From Exilibacterium tricleocarpae (GTDB lineage: Bacteria > Pseudomonadota > Gammaproteobacteria > Pseudomonadales > Cellvibrionaceae), in NCBI RefSeq assembly GCF_007004655.1, contig NZ_ML660089.1, positions 310,001-374,000 on the forward strand: DNA of 64,000 bases, written 5' to 3'. The notes under the pieces were generated by a model. It was not told where the DNA came from. It did no database searches and saw nothing but the letters and a program-made list of their open reading frames with translations. Shown piece by piece: positions 5,514 to 40,285 of this stretch; positions within the stretch are counted from its first letter, which is position 1; every line of letters starts with the position of its first letter. A program made the translations under genes and the position numbers.

Positions 5514-5636
5514 CATGCCAGTTTTCAGGCAGTTAGTTCAGATAAAAATCAGATCTATGGGAGTTGGTAGTTGCCTTAACGTGCACCTGATTGTCCAGGT
5601 TTTTTGAGATCGTGGTTTTGCTGCAGATCGTGGCAA

Positions 5637-5757
5637 ATCAATTGAAGGAGACGCCTTCTGAGACTCGGACTAGGCGTCCCCCCTCAACCCATCCCTGGGG
5701 GCTCGCGCACGGCATCCCTGCCGTGCACGGTCTCAGAAGGCGTCTCCTTCAATTGAT
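5637..5757 (+). repeat. long hairpin element, copy A
   Basis: A 121-bp imperfect palindrome. The outer arms at 5637-5664 and 5730-5757 are 28-nt exact inverted repeats. Close to the right arm is an inner hairpin at 5707-5726, GCACGGCA-TCCC-TGCCGTGC. Between them is CCATCCCTGGGGGCTC. The architecture (long arms, CATCCCTG apex beside the right arm) matches copies B to G at 30467-40285, although the arm sequence differs. It has no downstream T-run, so it does not read as a simple terminator. Confidence 0.85.
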
Positions 5758-5922
5758 TCTTCATTTGCACTTCAAATTTCTTCCCAAACTCGAGCGCTCC
5801 GCTCTTCAATATTGAGTGCCCCTTTCTCAAACAGGGCAATATCGCAAAGCGAATTATTGCAACAGCCGGATCAGGCGCGTGATAACGTTCAATAAACCCC
5901 TGGCGCCCCGAAGCATGCAGTT

Positions 5923-12775: not shown

Positions 12776-15112
12776 ATGAGTTTCAGTGATGACGAAGATA
12801 TCCTGCAGGATTTTTTGGTTGAAGCCGGAGAGATTCTCGAGCAACTCTCCGAGCAGCTTGTCGACCTCGAACAGCGTCCCGATGATACCGAACTGTTAAA
12901 TGCCATCTTTCGCGGCTTCCACACGGTCAAGGGTGGTGCCGGTTTCCTGCAATTGAACGCCATGGTGGATTGCTGCCATGTGACTGAGAATCTGTTTGAC
13001 ATCCTGCGCAACGGCAAACGGGCGGTGACCTCCGAGTTGATGGATGTGGTGCTGCAGGCGCTGGATACCGTCAACAACCAGTTTGACGCCATCTCCAATC
13101 GCGAGGAGCCGCCTCTGGCTGAGCCAGAGTTGATTGCCCAGTTGGAGCGCCTGGTGTCCTGTGAAGACCTGACTGAGGCCGCTGTCGCCGACAGTGAGCC
13201 GGCTGCGGCGGCGGAGCCGGCGCCGGTTGCCGGGGCGGATACCGCTGCTGCGGAGGGCGATATATCAGACACGGAGTTTGAACAGCTACTCGACGCTATC
13301 AGCGACACCGATGCCGCCGCCGCACCTGCCGCCGGTGGTGGGGATAGTGACGAAATTACCGAGGGCGAGTTCGACGCGCTGCTGGATCAGTTACACGGCA
13401 AGGGCAAAGGGCCGGCAACCGGTGACAAAGACGCACCTGTAGGCACCTCGTCAGAGACAGGTGCCACTCCGGCAGAGGCGGCCGCCGGCGCTGCAGCGGC
13501 GTCCGACAGCGACGAAATTACCGAAGAAGAGTTCGAGTCGCTGCTCGACCAGATACACGGCAGTGGCCGCGGACCGGGCGGTGAAACACCGGCGGCGGCT
13601 GCCCCGGGCGATAAACCGCCGGCGGCGGCTGCCCCGAGCGGTGAGGCCGCGCCGCCGCCGGCCGCAAAGGCCGGGGACGATCTGATTACCGAAGACGAGT
13701 TTGAAGACCTGCTGGATCAATTGCACGGCAAGGGCAAGGCGCCCGCCAATGAACAGGATAAAGCCGCAGCGACACCGCCGCCGGCCGCCAAGGCGCCGGC
13801 GCCCAGTGCGCCGGCGGCCAAGAAAACGCCGCCGAGCGCGCCACCGGCAAAACCCCCGGCAGCCGCCGCCGCGGCCGCCACCGCGGCGCCGGCGAAACAA
13901 CCTGCGGCCCGGCCCGGTCGCGAGGGCGGTCAGGCCGGCGCCGGCGAGACCACGGTGCGAGTCGATACCCAGCGTCTCGACGATATTATGAATATGGTGG
14001 GTGAACTGGTGCTGGTGCGCAACCGACTGGTGCGCCTGGGCTTAAGTTCCAACGATGAGGCGCTGGGCAAGGCGGTTGCCAACCTCGATGTAGTGACGGC
14101 GGATTTGCAGAGCGCGGTCATGAAGACCCGCATGCAGCCGATCAAAAAAGTCTTTGGTCGCTTCCCGCGGGTAGTGCGGGACCTGGCTCGCAACCTGAAA
14201 AAAGAAATCAATCTGGAGCTGCAGGGTGAGGATACCGATCTCGACAAAAATCTGGTCGAGGCGCTGGCCGACCCCCTCGTGCACCTGGTGCGCAACGCCG
14301 TCGATCACGGTATCGAGCTGCCCGCCACGCGCGAAGCCAACGGCAAGCCTCGCGTCGGCACCGTGGTTCTCGCGGCGGAGCAGGAGGGTGATCACATCCT
14401 GCTGACCATCACCGACGACGGCGGCGGTATGGATGCCGATAAACTGCGCGGTATTGCCGTAGATAAAGGTGTTCTCGACGAAGACGCGGCGCAGCGGCTG
14501 TCGGACACCGAGGCCTACAGTTTGATTTTTGCCCCCGGCTTTTCGACGAAAAAAGAAATTTCCGATGTCTCCGGGCGCGGCGTGGGTATGGATGTGGTGA
14601 AAACCAAAATCACCCAGTTAAACGGCTCCATAGAAATACAGTCAAAGCTCGGTGAGGGTTCACGCATCATCATCAAGGTGCCTTTGACCCTGGCCATCAT
14701 GCCGACCCTGATGATCATGCTGGGTGAGCAGACCTTTGCCCTGCCGCTGGTGAGCGTCAATGAGATTTTCCATATGGACCTCACCAAGAGCAATGTGGTC
14801 GACGGGCAGGAGTGTGTCACCATCCGCGAAAAGGCCATTCCCATCTTTCATTTAAAACACTGGCTGGTAAACGGTCAGTTTGGTGCGGCAGTGCCCGAAG
14901 AGGCCCACGTGGTGATTGTCTCTGTCGGCACCCAGCGGGTGGGCTTTGTCGTCGACCAGCTTATCGGTCAGGAAGAAGTGGTTATCAAACCGCTGGGTAA
15001 AATGTTGCAGGGGACGCCGGGTATGGCCGGCGCCACCATCACCGGCGATGGCACCATTGCCCTGATACTGGATGTGCCGAGCATGCTGCAGCGTTACGCG
15101 GACAGCCCATGA
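12776..15112 (+). CDS. cheA: chemotaxis sensor kinase CheA
   Basis: CheA autophosphorylates in response to receptors and passes phosphate to CheY and CheB. The 778-residue protein starts with an HPt domain whose acceptor is H49 (FRGFHTVKGGAGFL). Residues about 130-380 are a long A/P-rich linker holding four related acidic segments, such as DEITEGEFDALLDQLHGKGK. Then follow the dimerisation domain (LDDIMNMVGELVLVRNRLVR), the ATPase with N box VHLVRNAVDHGIELP, G1 TDDGGGMD and G2 SGRGVGMDVV, and the CheW-like regulatory domain to the end. No separate CheY-binding P2 domain is obvious; the repeated segments may take its place. Confidence 0.96.
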   Translation: MSFSDDEDILQDFLVEAGEILEQLSEQLVDLEQRPDDTELLNAIFRGFHTVKGGAGFLQLNAMVDCCHVTENLFDILRNGKRAVTSELMDVVLQALDTVNNQFDAISNREEPPLAEPELIAQLERLVSCEDLTEAAVADSEPAAAAEPAPVAGADTAAAEGDISDTEFEQLLDAISDTDAAAAPAAGGGDSDEITEGEFDALLDQLHGKGKGPATGDKDAPVGTSSETGATPAEAAAGAAAASDSDEITEEEFESLLDQIHGSGRGPGGETPAAAAPGDKPPAAAAPSGEAAPPPAAKAGDDLITEDEFEDLLDQLHGKGKAPANEQDKAAATPPPAAKAPAPSAPAAKKTPPSAPPAKPPAAAAAAATAAPAKQPAARPGREGGQAGAGETTVRVDTQRLDDIMNMVGELVLVRNRLVRLGLSSNDEALGKAVANLDVVTADLQSAVMKTRMQPIKKVFGRFPRVVRDLARNLKKEINLELQGEDTDLDKNLVEALADPLVHLVRNAVDHGIELPATREANGKPRVGTVVLAAEQEGDHILLTITDDGGGMDADKLRGIAVDKGVLDEDAAQRLSDTEAYSLIFAPGFSTKKEISDVSGRGVGMDVVKTKITQLNGSIEIQSKLGEGSRIIIKVPLTLAIMPTLMIMLGEQTFALPLVSVNEIFHMDLTKSNVVDGQECVTIREKAIPIFHLKHWLVNGQFGAAVPEEAHVVIVSVGTQRVGFVVDQLIGQEEVVIKPLGKMLQGTPGMAGATITGDGTIALILDVPSMLQRYADSP

Positions 15113-18062: not shown

Positions 18063-18420
18063 GCGCTTAGGGGTAGCGCTTAGGGGTCGTAGTGCTTGCT
18101 TCTTAGCCAGTGCGGTCTGTGAGCTTAGCTGCTCGCTTAGGGGTCGTAGTGCTTGCTTCTTAGCCAGTGCGGTCTGTGAGCTTAGCTGCTAGCGCTTAGG
18201 GGTCGTAGCGCTTAGGGGTCGTAGTGCTCGCTTCTTAGCCAGTGCGGTCTGTGAGCTTAGCTGCTGGAAAACTTGCGACGAGTTGCCGTTGGCTGATTGA
18301 TTTTAGCGCTTAGGGGTCGTAGTGCTCGCTTCTTAGCCAGTCCGGTCTGAGAACCTGGCTGCTGACAGACTTGCGACGAGTTGCCTTTGGCTGATTGTTT
18401 TTCAAGCACTACGACCCCTT
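18063..18420 (+). repeat. tandem array of GGGGTCGTAGTGCTT repeats
   Basis: The motD-parC gap is filled by an array. Two identical 57-bp units lie at 18077-18133 and 18134-18190, each starting CGCTTAGGGGTCGTAGTGCT. A truncated start follows (18191-18208), then two longer units at 18209-18306 and 18307-18403 that add a segment with TTGCGACGAGTTGCC. The array closes with AAGCACTACGACCCCTT at 18404-18420, the reverse complement of the leading word. So the whole block is bounded by inverted copies of a 16-nt word. The same word occurs at 24735-24836 and 36992-37020. There is no transposase or coding frame in the array. Confidence 0.85.
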
Positions 18421-24695: not shown

Positions 24696-24836
24696 CGGGG
24701 TCCGCGTATGCTGCGGGGTCGGAGCGTATGCTGCGGGGTCGGAGTGCTTGAATTTTGACCAGGCCGTTCCTGGTCAAAATTCAAGCACTCCGACCCCTAT
24801 CTACCTCAAGCACTCCGACCCTATCCGCTCCGGCGG
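24696..24836 (+). repeat. GGGGTCGGAGTGCTT repeats with perfect 29-bp hairpin
   Basis: The word GCGGGGTCGGAG and its partner occur several times. A near-perfect direct repeat with GCGTATGCTGCGGGGTC leads into a hairpin: arms 24735-24763 and 24769-24797 are exact 29-nt inverted repeats around CCGTT. A further inverted CTCAAGCACTCCGACCC follows at about 24808-24825. The core word is the same as in the array at 18063-18420 with T to G at one place. No T-run and no coding frame. It fills part of the ubiG-mtaD gap. Confidence 0.85.
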
Positions 24837-29309: not shown

Positions 29310-30428
29310 ATGGCAGCAGACCAAGAGCCGCCCGTAGCGCAGGGCTCCCCGGCCGAGTTGGGGCAGTTGCGCGAGCGTATCGATGCTATCGATCTCAAGC
29401 TTGGCGAACTGATCAGCGAGCGCGCCGCCTGCGCCCAGCAGGTGGCCGACGTGAAAAAGGCCGCTGGCGGCGCGGCCCTCTACTACCGCCCGGAACGGGA
29501 AGCCCAGGTATTGCGCAATGTGATGGCGCACAATCACGGTCCCCTGGACGACGAGGAGATGGCGCGGCTGTTTCGCGAAATCATGTCGGCCTGCCTGGCC
29601 CTCGAACAACCGGTAAAGGTGGCTTTTTTGGGGCCCGAGGGTACGTTTACCCAGCAGGCCGCGCTCAAGCACTTCGGGCACGCCGCCGTCAGCGTGCCCA
29701 TGTCGGCGATCGACGAGGTGTTCCGCGAAGTGGAGGCGGGCGCGGTTAACTACGGAGTGGTGCCGGTTGAGAATTCCACCGAAGGGGTGGTGAACCACAC
29801 GCTCGATAATTTTATGGATTCCAATCTGAAAATTTGCGGCGAGGTGGAGTTGCGCATCCACCAACACCTGCTGGTGTCCGGGGTTACCAATACCGATAGC
29901 ATCACCCGCATCTACTCGCACTCCCAATCGCTGGCCCAGTGCCGCAAGTGGCTGGATGGTCACTATCCCCACGCCGACCGGGTGGCGGTTAACAGTAACT
30001 CCGAGGCGGCCAAGCGCATCAAAGGCGAGTGGAATGCCGCCGCCATCGCCGGTGAGATGGCGGCCGATCTTTACGGGCTCGAGGTGCTGGCGGAGAAGAT
30101 CGAGGACCAGCCGGATAATTCCACCCGCTTTTTGATTATCGGCACCCAGGAGGTGCCGCCCAGCGGCCAGGATAAGTCCTCCATTGTCGTGGCTATGAAA
30201 AATCAGCCCGGTGCCTTACACGATTTGCTGCGGCCGTTTCACGAGCACAACGTCGATTTGACCCGGGTCGAGACCCGCCCATCGAGCAGCGGTACCTGGA
30301 ACTATGTGTTTTTTATTGATTTCTCCGGACATATCGACGACGAACCTGTGCGTGCGGCACTTCGGGCCGTGGGGGAGCGGGCATCGGATTTGAAGGTGCT
30401 CGGTTCTTATCCGAAAGCGGTTTTGTGA
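29310..30428 (+). CDS. pheA: bifunctional chorismate mutase/prephenate dehydratase PheA
   Basis: PheA converts chorismate to prephenate and then phenylpyruvate, the committed steps to phenylalanine. The 372-residue protein has an AroQ mutase domain (about 12-95, LRERIDAIDLKLGELISERA), the dehydratase (VAFLGPEGTFTQQAALKHFG; VPVENSTEGVVNHTLDNFMD; NSTRFLIIG near 270), and a C-terminal ACT domain (KNQPGALHDLLRPFHEHNVD, VETRPSSSGTWNYVFFID) for feedback by phenylalanine. In Pseudomonas serC lies between gyrA and pheA; here it does not. Confidence 0.96.
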   Translation: MAADQEPPVAQGSPAELGQLRERIDAIDLKLGELISERAACAQQVADVKKAAGGAALYYRPEREAQVLRNVMAHNHGPLDDEEMARLFREIMSACLALEQPVKVAFLGPEGTFTQQAALKHFGHAAVSVPMSAIDEVFREVEAGAVNYGVVPVENSTEGVVNHTLDNFMDSNLKICGEVELRIHQHLLVSGVTNTDSITRIYSHSQSLAQCRKWLDGHYPHADRVAVNSNSEAAKRIKGEWNAAAIAGEMAADLYGLEVLAEKIEDQPDNSTRFLIIGTQEVPPSGQDKSSIVVAMKNQPGALHDLLRPFHEHNVDLTRVETRPSSSGTWNYVFFIDFSGHIDDEPVRAALRAVGERASDLKVLGSYPKAVL

Positions 30429-30466
30429 TGGTGGCATTTCCTTAAGCAATAATGTGCCAATCGATC

Positions 30467-30656
30467 GGTCTGCCGCTGGGTAGGGCTTTCAGAAACACGC
30501 CGTAAACCCCCGCGAGCGGGTCCAGCCCAAAGCCAGAGGCTTTGGGCGTTGCGCGGGGCGAAGCAGCGCTTCACTGTTTCCCGCTCCACCCATGGGGGCT
30601 TCACGACAGCATCCCTGCTGTCGAGAGTTTCTGAAAGCCCTACCCAGCGGCAGACC
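30467..30656 (+). repeat. long hairpin element, copy B
   Basis: A 190-bp element in the pheA-cysC gap. Arms 30467-30496 and 30627-30656 pair at all 30 positions. Inside are GCCCAAAGCC-AGA-GGCTTTGGGC (30525-30547), GAAGC/GCTTC (30560-30572), GAGCGGG/CCCGCTC (30514-30520 with 30580-30586), and CGACAGCA-TCCC-TGCTGTCG (30604-30623) beside the right arm. Flanks CATTTCCTTAAGCAA on the left and ACCTACC on the right recur at other copies. The multi-branched fold suggests a structured RNA or ssDNA. Confidence 0.9.
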
Positions 30657-30751
30657 TACCTACGATATCTTAATCAAGGTGGATAGCGATAACGTGAAAA
30701 GGCCGATATTGACAACATTTGGGCTGACAGCACTCTAGGAAAGGTGAACCT

Positions 30752-31342
30752 ATGAGCAATCTGACCTGGCACGAGCACAGAATTACCCGCGATATGCGGT
30801 CTGTGCAAAAGAACCAACAGCCTTGTCTGTTGTGGTTTACCGGCTTGAGTGGGGCCGGCAAGTCGACCCTTGCCAATGCGCTGGAACACGAACTCTACAA
30901 GCGCGGCCACCACTCCTACCTGTTGGATGGGGACAATGTGCGCCACGGCCTCAACAAAGACCTGGGCTTCTCCGACAAAGACCGGGTTGAGAATATCCGC
31001 CGTATCGGTGAGGCGGCCAAGCTTTTTGTCGATGCCGGACTGATTGTGATATGCGCGTTTATTTCCCCTTTTCGCAGTGATCGCAATATCGTCAGGTCGC
31101 TGTTCGAGCCGGGAGAGTTTATAGAAGTTTATGTGGATACGCCGCTGGATATCTGTGAAGTGCGCGATCCCAAAGGGCTCTATAAAAAAGCCCGGCGCGG
31201 CCAGATTAAAAACTTCACCGGTATCGATTCTCCCTACGAGCCGCCGGAGGATGCGCAGGTCACCATCAAGGCCGGCGAGGCCACGGTGGAGGATTCGGTG
31301 ATCCTGCTGACCAATTACTTGAAGGATCAGGGGATTGTTTGA
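30752..31342 (+). CDS. cysC: adenylylsulfate kinase CysC
   Basis: CysC phosphorylates adenosine 5'-phosphosulfate to PAPS for sulfate assimilation. The 196-residue protein has the P-loop [20 protein letters not shown], the [20 protein letters not shown] motif and [28 protein letters not shown] precedes the ATG. It stands alone between two hairpin-rich gaps, about 3.3 kb before cysD-cysN, with tyrA-aroA in between. CysN here lacks a fused kinase domain, so this gene would supply it. Confidence 0.95.
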
Positions 31343-31608
31343 GTTTTGTCGGGGTGGCAAGGCAGGGCCGGTTTTCAGTGGTTCAGGTGTGAATACAAAT
31401 TCGACCGCACCGCAGACAGGCTCCGCCCGCAACCCCAGCCAGTGGTTTGTTATACAGAGTCCGCTTGAAAAGGCCCGGGTGCTTTACAAGCTTGATGATA
31501 AAAATGGTCTTGATAGCGATGGTATTCACTTTAGGTGCCTACTTTAGTTGGTAGTACTCTAGCAACTAGTGCTTCGACCAGAAAAGAATTTCACTTTGGT
31601 GGCACTTA
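31343..31608 (+). other. gap between cysC and element C
   Basis: I see no gene, promoter or structured repeat that I can support in this stretch apart from short runs before copy C. Confidence 0.4.
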
Positions 31609-31720
31609 GGTCTCAATCCGGGCATAGCCCTTTGGGACCTGCGCCAGCAGGGATGCTGGCGAAGAGCCTACAGGGATGTATTCACGGCGTGTCCCAAAGG
31701 GCTATGCCCGGATTGAGACC
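31609..31720 (-). repeat. long hairpin element, copy C, inverted
   Basis: A 112-bp element. Arms 31609-31638 and 31691-31720 pair at all 30 positions; their sequence shares little with copies B and F. An inner hairpin CGCCAGCA-GGGA-TGCTGGCG lies at 31642-31661, close to the left arm. The loop is GGGA, the reverse complement of the TCCC loop in copies A, B, D, E and F, so this copy is in the opposite direction. CAGGGATG also occurs at 31670-31679. Confidence 0.85.
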
Positions 31721-31795
31721 GGGCTGGCTAAGGAGACCAAAACCCGTTTTGGAGTGAAAAGATTTACTGATCATAATACTAGGTTCCAACTGAAC

Positions 31796-32043
31796 GGCCT
31801 GGCTCTGGGGAGGGCTTTCAGAAACACGGACTAGGCGTCCCTTGATGAACCCCTGCAAGCGGGTCCAGCCCAAAGCCAGAGGCTTTGGGCGTTGCGCGGG
31901 GCGAGGCAGCCCTTCGCTGTTTCTCGCTCCACCCATGGGGGCTCGCCTAAAGCGCCTACTGTCGTTTAAGGCGCCTACTCTTGGTGGTCCCGACAGCATC
32001 CCTGCTGTCGAGAGTTTCTGAAAGCCGTCTCCAGAGCCAGGCC
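31796..32043 (+). repeat. long hairpin element, copy D
   Basis: A 248-bp element before tyrA-aroA. Arms 31796-31825 and 32014-32043 pair at 28 of 30 positions; one mismatch would be a G.U pair in RNA. It shares with copy B the hairpin GCCCAAAGCC-AGA-GGCTTTGGGC (31868-31890) and ends with CGACAGCA-TCCC-TGCTGTCG (31991-32010). Compared with copy B it has an insertion with GCCTAAAGCGCCTACT, a word also found in copy F. Confidence 0.88.
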
Positions 32044-32184
32044 TACCCTCGGTATTTATAATTGAGTTGGGTGACGGTAACGTGCAGATCGATAAATTGT
32101 TAAAATTTTTCCAAGTACTCTCGAAGGTAGTCGTCTCAAACGATGGTAAGCGCTTGAAGCGGTTGTCATGCAGACTTAACACAT

Positions 32185-34458
32185 ATGAGCACTCAACCGG
32201 ATTACAGGCCTGACCGCAAAATGAGATTTCCGCACGAAGAAAACCTGATCAACAAACTGGTCGTTATCGGCCTCGGCCTGATTGGCGGCAGTCTCGCCGC
32301 CGGTTTAAAAGCCAATGGCCGCTGCGGTGAAGTGATCGGAATCGCCCGCCGCCAGGATACCTGCGAGCAGGCCAAAGCCCTCGGTATTGTCGACCGGGCC
32401 TACACCTCGCTAAGTGAGGTGGCGGCGGAGCTGGGCGAGCGCGACTTGATTTTTATTGCCGTGCCGACTCTCGCCGTTGCGCGGGTGTTCGCGGAGATAA
32501 AGGCCGTGGTATCCCCGCAGGTCACCCTCACCGATGGCGCCAGTGTCAAAGGCAGTGTGCTGGCAGCGGCGGTCGAAGTCTTTGGCGAGGTGCCGGCGCA
32601 ACTGGTGCCGGGCCACCCGATCGCCGGTTCGGAAAAAAGCGGGGTGACTGCCGCCCGCGCGGAGTTATATCGCGATCACCGGGTGATCCTGACGCCCACG
32701 CCTGAAACGGGACAGGCACATCGTGATAAAGTGCGCCGGGTTTGGCAGAGCGTGGGTGCGGAGGTGTTGGAAATGCCGGTAGCGGAGCACGACGAAGTGC
32801 TTGCCGCCACCAGCCACCTGCCCCATGCCATCGCCTATTCACTGGTGGATACGCTCGCCAACGATGCGGAGAATGAAAATATTTTTCGCTATGCGGCAGG
32901 CGGTTTTCGGGATTTTACCCGGATTGCCTCCAGTGATCCGGTGATGTGGCACGACATTATGCGGGCCAATCGCGACAGCGTGCTGAAAGCGCTGGATTTG
33001 TTCAGCCAGAACCTGGCGGGTTTAAGGCAGGCGATCGAGACAGAAGACAGCGAAACGCTGTTGGGGGTGTTTACGCGCGCAAAAGCGGCGCGGGACCATT
33101 TTACAAAAATGTTGGCAAAACAGGCGTATTCGAATTCTATGCAGGACAGAGAGTTAAGGTTTCATTTACAGCCCGGTGGCAAGGTGTCGGGTTCGATTCG
33201 CGTGCCGGGCGACAAGTCTGTTTCCCATCGCGCCATTATGTTGGGTTCGCTCGCCGAGGGAGTGACTGAAATAGAGGGCTTTCTCGAAGGCGAGGATGCG
33301 CTCGCGACGCTGCAGGCGTTTCGGGATATGGGGGTGGTTATCGAGGGGCCTTCCCAGGGGCGGGTCAAGGTGCACGGGGTCGGTTTGCACGGCCTGCGGC
33401 CACCGCCGGGTCCGCTGTACCTGGGTAACTCCGGCACGTCGATGCGGTTGCTGGCCGGGTTGCTGGCGGGGCAGGCATTCGATGTGGTGCTGACCGGCGA
33501 TGAATCCCTGTCGCAGCGACCCATGAATCGGGTCGCCAAACCGCTGGGCCTTATGAACGCGGCGATCGAAACTGGCGCCGGCGGCGTGCCGCCGGTGAAG
33601 ATAACCGGCGGCCGGCAATTACAGGGTATCGATTACACCATGCCGATGGCCAGTGCCCAGGTGAAATCCAGCCTGTTGTTGGCCGGGTTGTATGCCGAGG
33701 GCAGCACTCGCGTCACCGAGCCGGCGCCGACCCGGGACCACACCGAGCGTATGTTGGCGGGGTTTGGCTACCCGGTTGAGCGGCGTGGCGCCACCGCCGA
33801 GCTGAGCGGGGGTGGAACCCTGACGGCTGCTGCTATCGACGTACCGGCCGATATTTCCTCGGCGGCGTTTTTTATGGTGGCGGCTTCCATCGCGCCGGGC
33901 TCCGACCTGACGTTGTTGCACGTCGGCGTCAATCCCACCCGTATCGGTGTGATCAATATCCTGCGGTTGATGGGCGCGGATTTGACCCTGTCGAACGAAC
34001 GCGTTGTAGGAGGGGAGCCGGTCGCGGATATCCGTGTTCGCTATGCCCCGTTGCAGGGCATTCACGTTCCGCCGGACCAGGTGCCCCTGGCCATTGATGA
34101 GTTTCCGGTGCTGTTTGTGGCGGCCGCCTGTGCCCAGGGAGAGACCGTGCTCACCGGTGCACAGGAGCTGCGAGTCAAGGAAAGCGACCGGATTCAGGCC
34201 ATGGCCGACGGTTTACAAGTGCTCGGTGTGCGCGCGGCGCCGACGCCCGACGGGATTGTTATCCGCGGCGGTGAAATAGGTTCGGGCCGTGTCGACAGCT
34301 TGGGGGACCACCGTATTGCCATGGCGTTTTCCATTGCGGCCCTGCGTGCCGGCGGTGAAATACAGATCGACAACTGCGCCAATGTGGCGACGTCCTTTCC
34401 GGGGTTTGCCGAGATCGCCCGAGGCGCGGGAATAAGCTTAGAAGTATACGATACATAA
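32185..34458 (+). CDS. fused prephenate dehydrogenase/EPSP synthase TyrA-AroA
   Basis: This 757-residue protein joins two aromatic amino acid enzymes. Residues about 20-310 are the NAD-dependent prephenate dehydrogenase (VVIGLGLIGGSLAAGLKANG; LVPGHPIAGSEKSGVTAARA; ATSHLPHAIAYSLVDTLAND), the tyrosine branch. Residues about 318-757 are 3-phosphoshikimate 1-carboxyvinyltransferase (PGDKSVSHRAIMLGSLAEG; LYLGNSGTSMRLLAGLLAG; LRVKESDRIQAMADGLQ; DHRIAMAFSIA), the target of glyphosate. The same fusion occurs in Pseudomonas. The ATG at 32185 is followed by another at 32221; either works. hisC, the usual upstream neighbour in Pseudomonas, is missing. Confidence 0.94.
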   Translation: MSTQPDYRPDRKMRFPHEENLINKLVVIGLGLIGGSLAAGLKANGRCGEVIGIARRQDTCEQAKALGIVDRAYTSLSEVAAELGERDLIFIAVPTLAVARVFAEIKAVVSPQVTLTDGASVKGSVLAAAVEVFGEVPAQLVPGHPIAGSEKSGVTAARAELYRDHRVILTPTPETGQAHRDKVRRVWQSVGAEVLEMPVAEHDEVLAATSHLPHAIAYSLVDTLANDAENENIFRYAAGGFRDFTRIASSDPVMWHDIMRANRDSVLKALDLFSQNLAGLRQAIETEDSETLLGVFTRAKAARDHFTKMLAKQAYSNSMQDRELRFHLQPGGKVSGSIRVPGDKSVSHRAIMLGSLAEGVTEIEGFLEGEDALATLQAFRDMGVVIEGPSQGRVKVHGVGLHGLRPPPGPLYLGNSGTSMRLLAGLLAGQAFDVVLTGDESLSQRPMNRVAKPLGLMNAAIETGAGGVPPVKITGGRQLQGIDYTMPMASAQVKSSLLLAGLYAEGSTRVTEPAPTRDHTERMLAGFGYPVERRGATAELSGGGTLTAAAIDVPADISSAAFFMVAASIAPGSDLTLLHVGVNPTRIGVINILRLMGADLTLSNERVVGGEPVADIRVRYAPLQGIHVPPDQVPLAIDEFPVLFVAAACAQGETVLTGAQELRVKESDRIQAMADGLQVLGVRAAPTPDGIVIRGGEIGSGRVDSLGDHRIAMAFSIAALRAGGEIQIDNCANVATSFPGFAEIARGAGISLEVYDT

Positions 34459-38037: not shown

Positions 38038-38067
38038 GGTCTGGCTATGACTGGGGCTTTCAGAAAC
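38038..38067 (+). repeat. truncated hairpin element, left arm only (E0)
   Basis: A left arm with the inner end GGGGCTTTCAGAAAC, as in copies B, D, E and F, but without an inverted partner. It is followed by about 30 bases and then the CCTTAAGCGAAAATGTGCCA leader of copy E. It looks like the remainder of a copy deleted by recombination with copy E. The 5' flank resembles that of copies B and F. Confidence 0.7.
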
Positions 38068-38135: not shown

Positions 38136-38262
38136 GGCCTGGCACTGGCTGGCGCTTTCAGAAACACGGGCTAGGCGCCCCCTCGATAAACCCGTCCCTG
38201 GGGGCTTCCCGACAGCATCCCTGCTGTCGAGAGTTTCTGAAAGCGCCAGCCAGTGCCAGGCC
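38136..38262 (+). repeat. long hairpin element, copy E
   Basis: A 127-bp element in the fitB-comEA gap. Arms 38136-38165 and 38233-38262 pair at all 30 positions. CGACAGCA-TCCC-TGCTGTCG is at 38210-38229. Its arms differ from those of copy F at positions 3, 13 and 18, and each change has its matching change on the other arm. The rest of the 753-bp gap to 38626 shows no gene. Confidence 0.9.
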
Positions 38263-38955: not shown

Positions 38956-39093
38956 CCCCGCCTACCAGGGCATAGCTTTGCGGGCCCCGTCAAAGGAGAC
39001 GGACGGGTGCTTCAGGGATGAAGCTCGATAACGGATTATCGAGGCATCAGGGACGCGATGCGCGCCCGCAGAGCTATGCCCTGGTAGGCGGGG
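38956..39093 (-). repeat. long hairpin element, copy G, inverted
   Basis: A 138-bp element in the comEA-pyrF gap. Arms 38956-38985 and 39064-39093 pair over 30 positions with one G.U-type pair. Inner hairpins: GCTTCA-GGGA-TGAAGC (39009-39024) and CTCGATAA-CGGA-TTATCGAG (39024-39043). The GGGA apex is the complement of the TCCC apex, so this copy is reversed relative to B, D, E and F. Its arm sequence is unrelated to theirs. Confidence 0.85.
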
Positions 39094-40151: not shown

Positions 40152-40285
40152 GGTCTGGCACTGACTGGGGCTTTCAGAAACACGTCGTGATCCCGTCCTT
40201 GGGGACTCGCCTAAAGCGCCTACTTTTGGTCCCGACAGCATCCCTGCTGTCGAGAGTTTCTGAAAGCCCCAGTCAGTGCCAGACC
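40152..40285 (+). repeat. long hairpin element, copy F
   Basis: A 134-bp element before cmk. Arms 40152-40181 and 40256-40285 pair at all 30 positions. CGACAGCA-TCCC-TGCTGTCG is at 40233-40252, next to the right arm. The left flank CATTTCCTTAAGCAAATATG and right flank ACCTACCTTCAGT match those of other copies, so the full unit is larger than the arms. Confidence 0.9.

Follow-up and report, generated by a model that had tools for sequence, protein, structure and literature searches.

A Dispersed Gammaproteobacterial Repeat Whose Mobile RNA-Like Module May Capture the Global Regulator CsrA

Copy B is a palindromic repeat in a 64,000-nt stretch of the Exilibacterium tricleocarpae genome (the window; contig NZ_ML660089.1, positions 310,001 to 374,000), and its family is a large gammaproteobacterial set of dispersed elements built around an RNA-like module of about 112 nt. 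A stem of free sequence and retained pairing, P1, closes a three-way junction from which two hairpins, P2 and P3, emerge, and both hairpins are capped by ANGGAX hexaloops. Judged by sequence, the two loops match the published high-affinity CsrA/RsmE motif. The copies are also mobile, and the element looks like a MITE that carries an RNA module. The best explanation that we can offer, on which our own confidence is evenly divided, is a dispersed MITE-borne module with two predicted CsrA/RsmA loops that would act as a set of CsrA sites or as a CsrA sink. The module of copy B may thus be a mobile RNA able to capture CsrA, a global regulator and master switch of the cell.

A preliminary description of copy B had proposed a multi-branched fold in place of a plain palindrome, and this was borne out. 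The arms are fully paired, and both strands fold as RNA far below shuffled controls (-125.1 kcal/mol, z -11.75, for the plus strand and -136.7 kcal/mol, z -11.93, for the minus strand, with 0 of 200 shuffles as low in each case). The arms account for most of this excess in fold energy; the 130-nt interior taken alone gave z -2.59 on the plus strand (2 of 200 shuffles as low) and z -5.03 on the minus strand (0 of 200). Three of the four hairpins named in that description appear in the minimum free energy (MFE) structure of at least one strand, where 30525-30547 and 30604-30623 belong to both structures and 30560-30572 to the minus-strand one. The fourth, 30514-30586, is a 7-bp inverted repeat (GAGCGGG/CCCGCTC), yet it is found in neither MFE structure, and the minus strand closes the region in another register (30505-30511/30594-30600 and 30513-30519/30586-30592). 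The 30525-type hairpin is kept in copy D at 31868-31890, as had been claimed. Twelve copies with interiors of 130-131 nt, aligned over their length, retain this hairpin by paired changes, with GCCCAAAGCC/GGCTTTGGGC in two of them and forms like ACCGAAATC/GATTTCGGGC in the remainder. The P3 loop of all 12 is CANGGGTG, with GGG at the GGA position, and GGA is kept in P2 only. Since the P3 loop of copy B reads CATGGGTG, its GGA has been lost, and because the insert of about 78 nt in P3 leaves P2 as the only GGA loop, copy B is a derived copy in which a structured insert interrupted the P3 loop and left a single ANGGAX loop. The GGA strand of copy B is the minus strand, which runs antisense to pheA and cysC. 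A search of 30400-32200 for sigma-70-like promoters gave none.

The window holds more palindromes of this kind, whose arms measure 29-30 bp and whose interiors measure 52-188 nt; some of the arms are quite different, and the inner hairpins are similar (Table 1). Copies B and C flank cysC, and copy C is an intact member in the sense orientation to that gene. Repeats of other kinds also occur in the window. A perfect 29-bp palindrome with a 5-nt loop at 24735-24797 (GGGGTCGGAGTGCTTGAATTTTGACCAGG) belongs to a different family with relatives in loci L038 and L037, imperfect 98-nt repeat units containing CTTAGGGGTCGTAGTGCT lie at 18074-18401, and three 73-nt direct repeats spaced 162-168 nt apart at 13343-13745 perhaps mark a repeated protein domain.

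Table 1. Copy B, its parts, and other copies in the window.
Feature	Position	Strand	Description
Copy B	30467..30656	-	30-bp arms and 130-nt interior; relative to the 112-nt module, a variant with an insert of ~78 nt in the P3 hairpin; covariance-model match of 109.2 bits on the minus strand
P1 left arm of copy B	30467..30496		arm complementarity, 30/30 with right arm
P1 right arm of copy B	30627..30656		arm complementarity, 30/30 with left arm
P2 hairpin of copy B	30604..30623	-	minus-strand loop CAGGGATG (C-ANGGAX-G); from sequence and folds
P3 arm of copy B, enlarged by insert	30505..30600	-	P3 loop CATGGGTG
Insert hairpin of copy B	30525..30547	-	kept by compensatory changes among 130-type copies
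Second insert hairpin of copy B	30560..30572	-	minus-strand MFE
Left flank of copy B	30432..30466		common to other family-1 copies; holds degenerate outer terminal repeat TGGCATTTCCTTAAGC and GTGCCAATCGATC
Copy C	31609..31720	+	textbook 112-nt module, 30/30 arms; 120.7 bits
GGA loops of copy C	31648-31655 and 31671-31678		CAGGGATG, both intact; arm family other than that of copy B
Copy D	31796..32043	-	28/30 arms, 188-nt interior with further inserts; below 112-nt model threshold (E<=0.001)
Copy with unrelated arms	5635..5759	-	29/29 arms, core motifs unchanged; 76.4 bits
Lone left arm of truncated copy	38041..38067	-	adjoins copy 38136..38262
Family-1 copy	38136..38262	-	30/30 arms, 67-nt interior; 91.8 bits
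Divergent relative	38956..39093	+	29/30 arms, 78-nt interior, CAGGGATG-type hairpins; below model threshold (E<=0.001)
Family-1 copy	40152..40285	-	30/30 arms, 74-nt interior; 87.9 bits

The shortest form of the module consists of 30 + 52 + 30 nt (112 nt), so that a P1 stem of about 30 bp closes a 52-nt core with the hairpins P2 and P3. In the aligned structure, P1 has 30 bp, P2 has 10 bp, and P3 has 3 + 3 bp with a 5-nt bulge. A covariation alignment of 23 copies from several genera had 95.0% of its cells paired, compared with 70.5% in shuffles and 33-45% in slid controls, and double-sided changes were present at 38 of 46 pairs, including 6 of 10 in P2 and 4 of 6 in P3. The P1 score is partly circular because the arms were chosen for complementarity, and P2 and P3 are therefore the less biased part of this result. 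Arm sequences vary between copies while their complementarity stays, and the immediate flanks of the module differ between genomes. Outward extension of 210 copies gave arm lengths of mostly 28-33 bp, so 30 bp is a typical and not a fixed length. In genome G182, CATGGATG/CAGGGATG hairpins are found in the flanks as well, outside the 112-nt unit (L294-L301). These loci carry identical or near-identical copies, three of which start within 12 nt of the contig start.

A search by blastn with copy B gave matches in 8 of 58 genomes. The covariance model detected the element in 68 of 117 sampled relatives, in 46 of 274 class genomes at E <= 1e-6, and in 19 of 299 genomes of a phylum sample, all 19 of which belong to the same class, the Gammaproteobacteria (the own genome is included in all four counts). 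For each genome, these searches scored candidates up to a fixed cap. Such repeats can evidently be found by a covariance model where sequence search fails (68/117 versus 8/58). The model was built from GGA-bearing copies, and therefore GGA is somewhat favored and degenerate copies are missed: those at L007 and L018, known by blastn, gave no model match, and copy D, 38956-39093, and some blastn-known copies score below the model threshold. Outside a 400-kb sample of the own genome, copies were admitted on high blastn or model scores, which enriches intact ones among them. The own genome has at least 147 model matches (3 partial) among 150 scored of 1745 candidates, and G035 has at least 149 among 150 scored candidates. 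In the 400-kb sample the model finds 20 distinct places (E <= 0.01; one match is partial), and by extrapolation a whole genome would hold about 360. An inverted-repeat search that used no sequence model and requested interiors of at least 40 nt was also run on the window and the 400-kb sample. It returned 33 long inverted repeats, 26 of which have CANGGANG in the loop, as compared with 2.2% of random 74-nt windows; of the seven others, four have interiors of 4-7 nt, the extension step having shortened interiors. Rfam gave no match at E<=1 for 30400-32150 and, for the whole window at the gathering threshold, a single tRNA only. Phage and plasmid collections queried once, with copy C, returned no similarity. 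Six core strings occur in no paper of the open-access collection searched, and among the results listed by searches of it on the core octamer, repeats, and CsrA, the titles and abstract openings gave no description of the element. In the portions consulted, the Rfam 12.0 paper names MITEs and CsrA separately from each other, and the S. degradans genome paper reports an integron repeat of 140 bp.

On the GGA strand both loops read C-ANGGAX-G, with the hexaloop usually directly on the C-G pair and the two GGAs 20 nt apart in the 112-nt form. Among the 112-nt copies of the own genome, CANGGANG is present in P2 in 58 of 58 and in P3 in 58 of 58. The corresponding counts for 112-nt copies of other genomes are 94/105 and 100/105, and GGA itself is in place in 99/105 (P2) and 102/105 (P3), the variation falling mainly at N and X. 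A reading as GNRA tetraloops was rejected: it suits the GGGA forms alone, whereas TGGA forms are common and CGGA and AGGA are also present. According to the sections consulted, a high-affinity RsmE site is an ANGGAX hexaloop directly on a stem (PMC4005645), the CsrA SELEX consensus is RUACARGGAUGU, and CsrA bridges two sites separated by 10-63 nt, optimally by more than 18 (PMC7652899). The 20-nt spacing lies within this bridging range; copy B keeps one loop. Transcripts passing through a copy in the GGA orientation would fold into a stable clamp, and this clamp would bind one CsrA/RsmA dimer via both sites. The copies would then serve as scattered binding sites for CsrA or, taken together, as a sink for it, and every new insertion would spread the CsrA site. 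We suggest only tentatively the broader possibility of a class-wide mobile RNA that spreads two-site CsrA/RsmA clamps, with copy number and orientation setting free CsrA or the CsrA control of scattered transcripts. Should the loops bind CsrA, a selfish repeat would enter a global regulatory circuit through its hundreds of mobile high-affinity sites, and there would be a reason for a palindromic repeat to be common to a bacterial class. Against the CsrA reading stand the absence of an orientation bias, the absence of csrA co-occurrence, the loss of one loop in B-type forms, the weak strand polarity of the inner helices, and the negative promoter search in 30400-32200. CsrA was found in 42 of 46 element-bearing genomes and in 235 of 274 overall (cross-tabulated by eye), so that no co-variation with the element was seen and co-occurrence was set aside as uninformative. 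The element-bearing genomes that showed no CsrA are G123, G184, and G215, which are 67-88% complete, and G310, which is 98% complete.

Arm mismatches have a strand polarity. Read on the GGA-loop strand, they are G·U in 57 cases and A·C in 10 among 126 distinct copies, and the ratio is 89 to 18 in the arms of 154 distinct 112-nt copies. The own-genome arms (76 copies) have 18 G·U and 5 A·C, and those of other genomes have 84 and 16 (124 of 133 copies, nine with fewer than 24 paired positions having been dropped). The inverted repeats found without a model gave 20 versus 6 in 53 motif-bearing units and 22 versus 8 in all 57. Across 48 independent close pairs, one-sided changes comprised 27 GU, 3 AC, and 12 other, and two-sided changes comprised 75 transitions and 39 transversions. 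Inner helices have only a weak polarity, as their count of 72 G·U to 17 A·C becomes 29 to 16 once a habitual U·G pair is removed (nominal P 0.04; P values here treat the copies as independent, which does not hold). Because one strand prefers G·U over A·C among its arm mismatches, a folded single strand is constrained. Such a polarity is expected of a folded strand of either RNA or ssDNA; folded single-stranded DNA likewise accepts G·T wobbles. Even without CsrA, a stem with free sequence and retained pairing, together with a strand-polar G·U bias in its arms, offers a natural test of folded-strand selection in a transposable element.

The own genome carries the module in a MITE-like unit of about 235 bp, with terminal inverted repeats of 19-22 nt (GAATGGCACTTCCTTAAGC..GCTTAAGGAAGTGCCATTC) around it. 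Both ends are recognizable (<=2 mismatches in 10) at 32 own-genome copies, where the outer ends read GAATGGCAC...GTGCCATTC. Target-site duplications of 10-11 bp with at most one mismatch accompany 13 of these 32 copies, and 11 of the 13 units are 234-236 bp long. In 6 of the 13 duplications the duplicated string is GGGACGCCTG or its complement, which belongs to another repeat. That repeat is a second dispersed palindrome, GGGACGCCTGCAACTTAGCAACTT, with 26-bp arms, and it is a recurrent insertion target with GGGACGCCTG as the 10-bp duplication; it was seen at L105, L107, L108, and other loci, and also at L032:15816-15906 and L038:8753-8876. Separately, long poly-G/poly-C tracts occur in the own genome at L048:2749-2829 and L040:3664-3808, the latter adjoining a run of N. 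The preliminary description had favored a structured RNA rather than a transposon end or terminator. Its RNA part is upheld by a single-strand constraint with strand polarity and a covarying two-hairpin core, and the exclusion of a transposon end finds no support, in view of these units with their terminal inverted repeats and target duplications and of the nearest named relative, which has no copy at this locus. The proposal was thus half right, because a MITE-like unit appears to carry an RNA module.

Judged by PheA, that relative is Exilibacterium sp. PL25a_bin.9 (87% identity), and its orthologous locus, L185, has no family copy. The order gyrA, pheA, cysC, tyrA/aroA is unchanged there, and the idea of a gene cassette bounded by copies B and C was rejected on this ground. 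Between its pheA and cysC, the same locus has a perfect 30-bp palindrome composed of A/G-rich simple sequence (L185:11127-11212) that is unrelated to the family. In Microbulbifer, a copy occupies one orthologous place in 4 of 12 loci, with arms that are partly compensated by eye, and the other 8 gave no model match at that place. In Billgrantia (Halomonadaceae), an orthologous element is found in opposite orientations between the same flanks (L227:8751-8863, L259:8729-8840, and L243:8740-8854), as if it had been inverted via its arms.

Mobility of this kind could also belong to a DNA-only selfish element, with the fold serving as an ssDNA intermediate or as a transposase recognition hairpin and the GGA loops contacting that enzyme and not CsrA. 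We regard this as possible but doubtful. The own-genome units with their ends and duplications favor it, as does the dominance of inverted pairs among neighbors within 300 nt ('- then +' in 30 of 37 pairs, '+ then -' in 4, and '+ +' in 3). Genomic context points the same way. The context set comprised 216 distinct places, with mechanical ORFs of at least 120 codons as flanking genes and two weaker places of the 400-kb sample left out; 60 places are convergent, 14 divergent, 122 tandem, and 20 at locus edges. Divergent regions are therefore avoided, and the 54 sense and 68 antisense tandem contexts give no orientation bias relative to flanking genes (P 0.24). More than half of the element overlaps a mechanical ORF in 54 of the 216 places, and these ORFs are probably often spurious. 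Terminal repeats and duplications such as those described suggest a DDE-type transposase acting on double-stranded DNA, but such an enzyme should not need the inner stem. Transposition of ssDNA would instead predict a replication-strand bias, and G035, the only genome analyzed for this, showed none (69 leading, 80 lagging, P 0.41). The own genome has Y1_Tnp genes at six places, and no family copy was found in these loci, up to 1.5 kb on each side, which also led us to reject a RAYT-driven REP. Host-type genes fill the few stretches inspected between paired copies. An autonomous element between neighboring copies was likewise rejected in G182 and G319, where the stretches contain host-type ORFs by eye (a Sel1-like ORF and aroA).

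DNA gene conversion, or template switching at the cruciform, might maintain arm identity with no selected function, but this is improbable. Such a process would agree with arms that are perfect within 56 of 76 own-genome copies although the copies differ from one another, and with the inversion of the whole element between the same flanks in the Billgrantia orthologues. However, it predicts no difference between G·U and A·C, and the 57:10 ratio in the arms already puts it under strain. The conserved loops, as well as the conservation and covariation of P2 and P3, also stand against it.

Transcription terminators or stabilizers of mRNA 3' ends would account for the long GC-rich stems and for their enrichment in convergent and tandem gaps. 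This role is very unlikely, since of 210 copies only 2 on the GGA strand and 6 on the other strand have a T-run within 12 nt after the element, with a TTTT background of 3.4%, and the loop consensus would be left unexplained. The missing T-tract after the stem supports the preliminary description in its preference for a structured RNA over a terminator. Hardly credible is the notion that the arms are guides or spacers, captured as 30-nt copies of targets and flanking a scaffold that stays fixed, to which arm lengths clustered at 28-33 bp and arms unrelated between many genomes lend some appeal: the arms look related by eye, with compensatory changes, within G021, G035, and G078 and in the Microbulbifer orthologues, copy C has no similar phage or plasmid records (one query), and 16-mers of the 76 own-genome arms recur outside detected palindromes in nine 40-nt bins, eight of them at or beside known copies and the ninth in L022 near 2120.

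The reading of the element as a MITE-borne module with predicted CsrA/RsmA loops places it with MITE-borne palindromic repeats and CsrA-site RNAs, not as a proven CsrB/RsmZ member. It resembles the CsrA/RsmA-sequestering RNAs CsrB, RsmY, and RsmZ, as described in the portions of the sources consulted, in its ANGGAX hairpin loops on stems and its dimer-bridging spacing (PMC4005645, PMC7652899). Unlike them, it is dispersed in many copies, is carried by a MITE, and has two loops on a three-way junction whose long stem is free in sequence; its region is also without an Rfam match (30400-32150, E<=1) and without a promoter found (30400-32200). The REP/BIME palindromes of the GTAG and CGTC families are similar to the element in their high copy number, their location mostly in tandem and convergent gaps, and their frequent pairing in opposite orientations (PMC3733652, in the part consulted). 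The same part of that source gives 20-40 nt for REP, whereas the element has 112 nt and no conserved GTAG/CGTC tag. GTAG adjoins the arm in family 1 and some G078 copies and does not do so in the listed copies of G021, G035, and G111. The element further differs from REP/BIME in having no RAYT link in the own genome and a two-loop core that is common across the class. Its likeness to MITEs lies in the own-genome unit of about 235 bp, the terminal inverted repeats, and the 10-11-bp target duplications. In contrast to MITEs, it carries a class-wide module while the immediate flanks differ between genomes.
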